33,621 bases of DNA from Bacteroides sp. (GTDB lineage Bacteria; Bacteroidota; Bacteroidia; Bacteroidales; GCA-2748055), in the NCBI GenBank assembly GCA_011056635.1, contig DSEO01000100.1, positions 1 through 33,621 on the forward strand, given 5' to 3'. How positions within the stretch are numbered: position 1 is the stretch's first letter; each line of letters opens with the position of its first letter. Positions 12,874 to 15,427 of this stretch are shown piece after piece. A model generated the notes under the pieces. It ran no database searches. It saw only the letters and a list, made by a program, of their open reading frames with translations, and was not told the DNA's origin. The translations under genes were made by a program, and so were the position numbers.

Positions 12874-14094
12874 TCAGTTCCCCAGCAGATTCCGGATGGC
12901 CACGTATTCAGCCAGTGCGATCCCCTTGGCGGCATCACTCAGTTTGTAGTAATTCTTTACCAGCGGTTCGTTCAGCACATGACCTGCCCCGTATTCGATT
13001 TTCCAGATTTTCCCGGTGAATTCCAGGTGGTCCCCGATCTGGCCCCGGACCACCGGATCATCGATCATCTCCTCCAGCATCTCCCTGAATATGTTAGCTT
13101 CCAGGTCAAATTCCCTGCCGGCTCCGTCCTTGCTGATCACCTGGTCACCGGCCCTGCGGTTGTCGATGGCCTGTACATCCCCGATAAAGGCCCCCGGCTC
13201 CCCCACAAGGGAGATCATCTCATCCTGCATGGCCTCTATGCGGACCTGCAATGACCTGGCCTGTTCGTGGATCCGCGCAATGGATCCCTGCCGGTCCGCC
13301 GTTACACTGTCACCGGCCAGTTCCAGCAACGCGGCGGTCCGCTCCCGCACCTGCTGCACGCTGGCTTCATTCTGGACGGCCTCCTCCCGGTAGAGCTCCA
13401 GGGACGTTTTGGACATGTTCACATTGGCAAAGAGCGTGATGATGGCGATCCCCACCAGCAGCATCACCACATAGGGCAGGGCGACCTTCTGTTTTCCCGC
13501 CCGCCGGAAAGCATTGACCACGTAGAGGGGAACGAAACCCACAATCAGGAACCCGGTTCCCAGCAGGACCATGCTACCGGCCCCGGGCCAGTGCATGATC
13601 TTGAACAGTGCGCCGGCCAGCAGCAGGGCCAGGGTCAGATAGCCCACCACAGGGTATACAGGGTTCTTTTTCTCTGCCTGCTCCCGGTAATTGGTGACGA
13701 AATACAGCGGCAGGAACACCAGGACGATCAGTACAATGCCCACGGTAAGCAATATACCGGCACCCGGCCAGTGCATCCGTTTGAAGAAAGCGCCGAGTAG
13801 GGTGACCAGCGCGGAGGAAAGTCCGAAGATATACGTGAAATTTTTCATGCGTTGAAATTTTTTATCCAGGTTAAGCAAAGTCTGGTGCTGGAGCTCGGGA
13901 AGCCTGTTTTCGCCGATGGAATCGAGGACCGCCCCGTAGGAGGATTCGAAATCCTCCCCGGCATGCATCTTCTCCTCCACCATGCAGCATACATGGTCCA
14001 GCACGTCATCCAGGAGCCTCTGGCAGGTCAGCCCGCGGCCGGCCAGATCGCTCCTGATCCGTTCGAGGTTGTCGTCAATGGTCGCTCCGATCAT
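12874..14094 (-). CDS. Membrane protein: N-terminal HAAS/DUF1700-like cytosolic segment, two tandem GldL-like TM hairpins, a fifth TM and a C-terminal extracytoplasmic helical domain
   Basis: ...LLDDVLDHVCCMVEEKMHAGEDFESSYGAVL...; LLGAFFKRMHWPGAG and LAGALFKIMHWPGAG hairpins exactly 180 nt apart; fifth TM VVMLLVGIAIITLFA. Sits directly downstream of padR. Confidence 0.8.
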   Translation of the reverse strand: MIGATIDDNLERIRSDLAGRGLTCQRLLDDVLDHVCCMVEEKMHAGEDFESSYGAVLDSIGENRLPELQHQTLLNLDKKFQRMKNFTYIFGLSSALVTLLGAFFKRMHWPGAGILLTVGIVLIVLVFLPLYFVTNYREQAEKKNPVYPVVGYLTLALLLAGALFKIMHWPGAGSMVLLGTGFLIVGFVPLYVVNAFRRAGKQKVALPYVVMLLVGIAIITLFANVNMSKTSLELYREEAVQNEASVQQVRERTAALLELAGDSVTADRQGSIARIHEQARSLQVRIEAMQDEMISLVGEPGAFIGDVQAIDNRRAGDQVISKDGAGREFDLEANIFREMLEEMIDDPVVRGQIGDHLEFTGKIWKIEYGAGHVLNEPLVKNYYKLSDAAKGIALAEYVAIRNLLGN

Positions 14095-14096
14095 TG

Positions 14097-14429
14097 TCAG
14101 GCAGGCGACGGTTTGAGCACATAGGTCAGGGTATTCACAAAATCAAAAAATTCATCCAGCTTCTGCTGTGCCCCTGACCTGCCAACCTCGGTCAGAGAGT
14201 AGTACTTCCGGACCCGCCTGCCGATGTATTCCGTTTCGGTGGTGATGTGTCCGTCCGCCTCCAGTTTATGTAAAACCGGGTAGAGCGCCCCGAATGTGAG
14301 CCTGATCTTACCGGTGGAGAGCTCTTCCACCTTTTTGGTAATCTCATAGCCGTACATGCGTCCGTTGTCGGCCAACAGCTTCAGTACGATCGTACGCAGG
14401 GTACCTTTTAAAAGATCATTCGATATCAT
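14097..14429 (-). CDS. PadR family transcriptional regulator
   Basis: 110 aa winged-helix: LLKGTLRTIVLKLLADNGRMYGYEITKKVEELSTGKIRLTFGALYPVLHKLEADGHI...RRVRKYYSLTEVG. Confidence 0.95.
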   Translation of the reverse strand: MISNDLLKGTLRTIVLKLLADNGRMYGYEITKKVEELSTGKIRLTFGALYPVLHKLEADGHITTETEYIGRRVRKYYSLTEVGRSGAQQKLDEFFDFVNTLTYVLKPSPA

Positions 14430-14434
14430 GGGTA

Positions 14435-14464
14435 CAAATATATAACATTGTTATATATATGCAA
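14435..14464 (-). promoter_or_regulatory. Promoter of padR overlapped by a perfect 10-1-10 palindrome (14438-14458)
   Basis: Minus strand: TTG (14464-14462) - N19 - TATATTTG (14442-14435), exact TAnnTTTG. Palindrome ATATATAACA-T-TGTTATATAT covers most of the spacer and part of the -7 box. Confidence 0.8.
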
Positions 14465-14472
14465 ATTATATA

Positions 14473-14510
14473 TTGCTTTTTTTCCGTTTTGTTCATATGT
14501 TTGAACATAT
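14473..14510 (+). promoter_or_regulatory. Divergent plus-strand promoter overlapped by a second palindrome (14495-14510)
   Basis: TTG (14473-14475) - N20 - TATGTTTG (14496-14503), exact TAnnTTTG. Palindrome ATATGTT-TG-AACATAT overlaps the -7 box. Confidence 0.75.
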
Positions 14511-14527: not shown

Positions 14528-15427
14528 ATGACTATGAAACAAAAATTTACGCTTAAGAAACTTTTCCGGAAAAGGGAAGGCTGGCTGCTGATGGCCCTGT
14601 TTGCACTCCTGCTCGTGTTCGGGTGCTATGAATTCAAAGTGGTGGATCAGCCCACCGAAGGTACCAAGAACAGTTCGTTTGATGTGAATATCGTGATGAC
14701 CGAGGATGATGATGAGTCCAATGACTGGACCTATGAGGACGGTTCACTGACCAAGGGCGGCCTGTTCAGTGTGCTGCTTCCGGAAGGATGGACCATCACG
14801 GACGACATCGGGGTCACCGTGGTGGCGGCTGACTCCCTGCCGGACGGAATGGGAGGATGGGTTAAACCGACCGGGGAACACGGCGGACAGTACGTGCTGC
14901 AATATGATGAAACGCAGACCACCATGCTGAATGATTCCTCTGCCGCACCGCCCGAAGGGTATTACTGGTGGGGTGCCGTGACCAGCGAACCCGTGGACAT
15001 GGCGTTCTTCGACAGCCTTTACTTCACAGTGAACATCCTGACGGACGACAAGCTGGGGGAATTCTTCCTGCAGTATGCGGCGGGTGACGTGGATTACTGG
15101 GGCCGGATGCCCTATGATCCCCTGACCCTCACCGATCCGCTTCCCATTACCATCAGTCCGGGCGTCAATGTGAATGAATACCTGACGGAAGCTGCCCTTT
15201 CCCTCTATCCCAATCCCTCCTACGGATACCTGAACATCGGGCTGTCCGGTGCAATGGACCGGACGGTGGATATGATGATCTATGATCTGAGGGGAAAACA
15301 GGTACGCTCCGGACAGATTACCGGTGCGCACACCACCCTGGATGTGGTGGACCTGGCCCCGGGGACCTATGTGCTCCGGCTTGAAACGGGCGGGGAGACA
15401 ATCACCAGGAAATTCGTGAAACACTGA
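14528..15427 (+). CDS. Secreted protein (DUF4961-like N-terminal region) with a T9SS type A sorting domain
   Basis: Hydrophobic N-terminus ending LLLVFGC; ...CYEFKVVDQPTEGTKNSSFDVNIVM; C-terminal LYPNPSYGYLNIGLSG...DLAPGTYVLRLETGGETITRKFVKH. Confidence 0.8.
   Translation: MTMKQKFTLKKLFRKREGWLLMALFALLLVFGCYEFKVVDQPTEGTKNSSFDVNIVMTEDDDESNDWTYEDGSLTKGGLFSVLLPEGWTITDDIGVTVVAADSLPDGMGGWVKPTGEHGGQYVLQYDETQTTMLNDSSAAPPEGYYWWGAVTSEPVDMAFFDSLYFTVNILTDDKLGEFFLQYAAGDVDYWGRMPYDPLTLTDPLPITISPGVNVNEYLTEAALSLYPNPSYGYLNIGLSGAMDRTVDMMIYDLRGKQVRSGQITGAHTTLDVVDLAPGTYVLRLETGGETITRKFVKH

Follow-up and report, generated by a model that had tools for sequence, protein, structure and literature searches.

The window, as we call the whole 33,621-nucleotide stretch of DNA analysed here, codes for a 406-aa membrane protein in which two GldL-type transmembrane hairpins are fused to a GldM-type axle helix and D1 domain, and this layout reflects true homology to the ring and axle components of the type IX secretion (T9SS)/gliding motor. 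The hairpins have lost the glutamate of the motor, and the gene follows, after a gap of 2 nt, that of a PadR-family regulator with a conserved palindrome at its promoter; both genes lie where the earlier note had placed them (Table 1). We propose, with a probability of roughly 55%, that the fusion is a membrane signalling module derived from a decommissioned, proton-uncoupled GldLM motor, which would signal via its N-terminal domain and PadR.

Table 1. Features of the padR/fusion locus (positions in the window)
Feature	Position	Strand	Evidence
GldL-GldL-GldM(TM+D1) fusion membrane protein, 406 aa	12874..14094	-	ORF; Pfam GldL_N; AF2
N-terminal helical domain, predicted cytosolic, aa 1-84, motif LLDHICC..E, PadR-linked	13843..14094	-	
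D-H-x-C-C-x-x-E motif, aa 33-41	13972..13998	-	
GldL-type hairpin 1, aa 85-141, motif GAFFKRMHWPGAG, TM2 without acidic residue	13672..13842	-	
GldL-type hairpin 2, aa 145-201, motif GALFKIMHWPGAG, TM2 without acidic residue	13492..13662	-	
TM5, aa 204-229, GldM-type axle helix, ends ANVNMSK (GldM: ALNMSK)	13408..13485	-	
Helical domain, predicted periplasmic, aa 229-406, GldM/PorM D1 homologue	12877..13410	-	hhalign; PDB profile search; Foldseek
PadR-family winged-helix regulator, 110 aa	14097..14429	-	PF03551 E=6.3e-20
Putative operator ATATATAACATTGTTATATAT, perfect palindrome	14438..14458	.	
Second putative operator copy, overlapping the first, one mismatch	14453..14473	.	
Candidate Bacteroidota -7 element TATATTTG, overlaps operator	14435..14442	-	sequence
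Divergent lipoprotein-like gene with T9SS C-terminal sorting domain	14528..15427	+	

Pfam GldL_N matches the fusion protein in two stretches that correspond to both hairpins (E=5e-14, 52.7 bits with a cut-off of 24), and the NCBIfam equivalog model for GldL, TIGR03513, gives 36 bits, under its cut-off of 68.3. When the two-hairpin family (29 rows) was compared by hhalign to true GldL, the probability was 98.1 (E=1.3e-13). The earlier note had picked out the motif of each hairpin and had allowed that it might prove generic, or the transmembrane region foreign to the GldL fold; both motifs are present, they lie within genuine GldL_N matches, and the region downstream of them is GldM. In the window's genome the only GldL_N matches are the fusion protein and the true GldL on another contig (C37). 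The fusion has five hydrophobic segments, with a K/R-rich loop after each hairpin, and this charge pattern, read together with the topology of GldL and GldM, fits an N-terminus in the cytosol, two hairpins that each run in-out-in, and a single helix that enters the periplasm.

In the true motor, E49 of GldL is essential, and it is strictly conserved in GldL (PMC8986121). None of the five hydrophobic segments of the fusion has an Asp or Glu, and in the E49 column of the hairpin HMM not one of about 270 family hairpins carries an acidic residue (classes of n=53, 54, 28, 28, 28, 39 and 39), so that the loss of the motor glutamate, claimed beforehand for the window protein, holds family-wide. The same column is acidic in 26 of the 30 single-hairpin sequences, a class made up mostly of true GldL; the non-acidic exceptions printed for this class are fragments of family proteins, and the true GldLs listed all keep the Glu.

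The relationship of the C-terminal half to GldM is supported by several comparisons. Against true GldM, the two-hairpin family (29 rows) gave an hhalign probability of 98.8 (E=7.5e-17) over 192 columns. A profile of 12 family members, searched against 397 Bacteroidota genomes, found true GldM genes with E-values down to 2.5e-25, matching over profile positions 211-421 in frames of about 510-530 aa; among these matches was the GldM of the window's own genome, which adjoins its true GldL. The family profile, when run against PDB sequences, placed PorM/GldM at the top (2e-14) and GldL second. Pfam GldM_1st is sub-threshold on the window protein itself (E=0.029); it scores above cut-off in homologues over the region aligned to that of the window protein (51 bits in L027, 42.7 in L021), the best E-values among homologues being 7e-19 and 2.9e-20. 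The structural comparison suggested in the earlier note agrees: in a Foldseek search with the AlphaFold model (pLDDT 86.2, pTM 0.61) the 15 best matches were all GldM/PorM, with 7sat_A at a probability of 1.00, a TM score of 0.76 on the target and E=1.5e-3, and a three-hairpin relative likewise retrieved GldM/PorM (7sau_A, E=5e-6). True GldM reads PRQKMINLMYLVFIAMLALNMSKEVL; the family keeps the end of this helix (LALNVSKNVL, or ANVNMSKTSL in the window protein) without the PRQK start, and the fusion stops after D1, thus missing the D2-D4 shaft of GldM, whose full length is about 515 aa. What the earlier note had described as mimicry of a fused GldL-GldL-GldM arrangement is accordingly homology to both motor components.

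A scan of named genomes recovered 79 family loci, all from Bacteroidota and mostly from MAGs, and the conservation of the pattern at over 70 loci throughout the phylum means that it is not due to chance. Five architectures were distinguished: 1) the N-terminal domain with two hairpins and GldM D1, as in the window; 2) the N-terminal domain with three hairpins and D1; 3) short forms of 243-264 aa without D1; 4) stand-alone versions with two hairpins and D1; 5) two hairpins and D1 followed by a further TM segment, a coiled coil and a SpoIIE domain (Pfam 2e-21). Within the window's genus, 3 to 4 genomes carry a SpoIIE fusion (L031:806-2971 on the minus strand, L042:2432-4603, L215 and L217), one of these being a fragment. 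A pattern scan could not use the alignment of 12 diverse members, whose sequences had diverged too far.

The second and fourth of these architectures are frequently adjacent. Three-hairpin proteins are followed by a gene for a stand-alone two-hairpin protein with GldM D1 in 24 of the 27 cases with enough flanking sequence, as against 0 of 46 for two-hairpin proteins, a contrast that stems from few independent events, in that a tree of the N-terminal domain, first hairpin and PadR requires only 3 changes to account for the three-hairpin state. Such pairs are seen at L027, L028, L054, L062, L066, L068, L070, L072, L073, L076-L079, L081, L083, L084, L086, L089-L091, L094, L096, L097, L100 and L106; the second-gene partners have no N-terminal domain, and three-hairpin proteins without a partner are found at L030, L032 and L069. 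Three further loci (L033, L034 and L103) belong to one partnered lineage and have a degenerate two-hairpin first gene; they are PadR-linked, and their hairpins lack the HWPG motif while D1 and the two-hairpin partner are kept. Each 3+2 pair contains five hairpins and two axle helices in total, which matches the 5:2 stoichiometry of the GldL5GldM2 motor (PMC9389320) and is suggestive of a 5:2 assembly of the paired products. The window protein has two hairpins per axle, and its genome holds no partner gene.

The N-terminal domain carries the conserved residues D33, H34, C36, C37 and E40. They form the nearly invariant D-H-x-C-C-x-x-E motif, which lies in one helix of the putative cytosolic domain and is a candidate metal or redox site. 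An initial assignment of this region as HAAS/DUF1700-like did not hold up: Pfam HAAS (PF22564) and HAAS_TM/DUF1700 (PF08006) match no family member, hhalign against Bacteroidota PspC-HAAS domains gave a probability of 0.8%, and a cross-HMM search with HAAS was negative, so that the sequence lends this identity no support. The N-termini of ADOP permeases, also considered as relatives, gave no useful match. To judge by its sequence, the domain constitutes a family of its own, defined by the motif LLDHICC..E. The same genome encodes a canonical PadR-HAAS-PspC pair on contig C98 (L156), which is separate from the system described here. It also has, on contig C47 (L003:1145-2406), a paralogous PadR next to a 307-aa protein that combines the same N-terminal domain with an unrelated multi-TM part, which marks the N-terminal domain as a distinct PadR-linked module. 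At the C47 locus a one-mismatch copy of the operator lies upstream of the preceding TPR gene.

PadR is encoded directly upstream at nearly every family locus with enough flanking sequence, which bears out the co-occurrence anticipated in the earlier note; the window's PadR also matches TIGR03433 (E=3.9e-19), under the cut-off of that model. The padR promoter bears a conserved palindrome, ATATATAA-N5-TTATATAT. Perfect 8-bp arms with a 5-bp spacer are present at 32 of 82 loci (shuffles: mean 1.2, maximum 3), and arms matched at 7 or more of 8 positions at 62 of 82 (shuffles: mean 16, maximum 24). The arms vary by lineage with the symmetry maintained, as in ATACATAA/TTATGTAT and ACCTAA/TTAGGT, and this position and symmetry suggest that PadR binds the palindromes. 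In the window's 3.55 Mb genome, which is 88% complete and could thus lack further sites, the perfect operator occurs only at the padR promoter, with 2 weaker sites elsewhere; the genome-wide palindrome control is uninformative, the reversed pattern being the same palindrome. Given that the perfect site is found only at its own promoter, PadR probably controls mainly its own two-gene operon, and the dyad looks self-regulated. The element TATATTTG, a candidate -7 element by the Bacteroidota consensus, would imply a near-leaderless transcript. The divergent gene with the T9SS sorting domain shares its intergenic region with padR and is absent as a conserved neighbor at the other loci. No conserved operon partner or target was found in the window's genus, the sole conserved neighbors of the dyad loci being convergent DUF2147/DHFR/thyA genes.

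These features underlie the proposed signalling module; the sensor or envelope-stress function suggested in the earlier note is an inference. With two hairpins and the axle helix in one chain, the hairpins would surround axle helices as they do in the motor, presumably in an oligomer, with D1 situated in the periplasm; since the motor glutamate is gone, proton flow would not be the drive. A change in the periplasm or the membrane might instead alter D1 or the transmembrane packing, and this could be relayed to the N-terminal domain, which would bind or release PadR, a contact to which the gene linkage points. PadR would in turn repress its own two-gene operon via the twin palindromes, so that the signal could turn the level of this same membrane protein up or down, comparable to the PadR/DUF1700 operons of Listeria. 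In true GldLM, the periplasmic domain of GldM alters its conformation in response to the packing of the GldL transmembrane helices and to the proton-motive force (PMC8986121), and hence the fold can couple the membrane to the periplasm. The fusion of the TM+D1 module to a SpoIIE phosphatase likewise fits an input module. Counting against a signalling role, some relatives (the short forms) dispense with D1 altogether. A more specific version, which we offer tentatively and at somewhat short of even odds, is that the glutamate-less fused GldLM family comprises transmembrane receptors, whose 3+2 pairs form a pseudo-5:2, GldL5GldM2-like complex signalling via PadR (or SpoIIE).

Should PadR regulate nothing beyond its own operon, the membrane protein might act as an effector rather than a sensor. 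It could then protect or modify the envelope and be induced when a small molecule relieves repression by PadR, the latter being the sensor; the operator unique to its own promoter fits this, as do Listeria LltR and LftR, PadR proteins that repress their own operon with the co-encoded membrane protein as the effector (PMC6624303). We nevertheless regard such a role as unlikely, because the conserved N-terminal domain accompanies PadR and is not present in the second-gene partners, and because the C47 paralogue retains this domain and PadR with a different transmembrane part, which favors a relation between the two. Still less probable is that the fusion co-assembles with true GldL/GldM as a brake that tunes type IX secretion or gliding. 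Its homology to both proteins and the true GldL and GldM in the same genome would allow this, but the 3+2 pairs look self-sufficient, and PadR and the SpoIIE fusion would be left unexplained. SprA is present in all 50 family-bearing genomes tested; however, it is also widespread in the background, with 320 of 394 genomes and 174 of 180 genera (97%) having it, making the T9SS co-occurrence uninformative, and we rejected it as evidence. That the protein is still driven by ions, through a different protonatable residue such as the nearly invariant Lys or His of FKxxHW, is very improbable in a family whose column for E49, a residue essential in the true motor (PMC8986121), is never acidic, and with no acidic residue in any of the five TM segments.

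Both the motor fold and PadR-membrane protein dyads are already known. The family shares with GldL/PorL, which form the ring of the motor, the GldL_N hairpin with the GALFKIMHWPGAG motif, and differs from them in having two or three hairpins per chain and a fused axle, and in lacking both E49 and the C-terminal cytoplasmic region of GldL. With GldM/PorM it shares a TM helix ending in ALN(M/V)SK and the helical D1 domain, whereas the N-terminal PRQKMINLMY and the D2-D4 shaft are lacking and the axle is fused behind GldL hairpins. A signalling role has been proposed for PadR dyads, and in the HAAS-PadR dyads, as far as that account describes them, a standalone PadR similarly adjoins a membrane protein whose N-terminal cytosolic domain is short and helical; the domain described here is not detectably HAAS, and GldLM takes the place of the other sensor domains reported there (mSystems 2024, PMC11237479). 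Autoregulated operons of PadR and a membrane protein are known from Listeria LltR and LftR, which have a Gram-positive host and DUF1700 or FtsW-like membrane proteins (PMC6624303); here autoregulation is predicted. We found no report in the open-access papers searched of a glutamate-less GldLn-GldM fusion with PadR or SpoIIE. If our proposal is correct, the GldLM fold is not just a motor, and Bacteroidota have adapted it into a receptor-like module that feeds several outputs. The natural glutamate-less fusions would then provide a control set for separating the parts of GldLM that relay conformational change from the proton-using ones. The 3+2 gene pairs would bear independently on the question of why the motor places five ring units around two axles.
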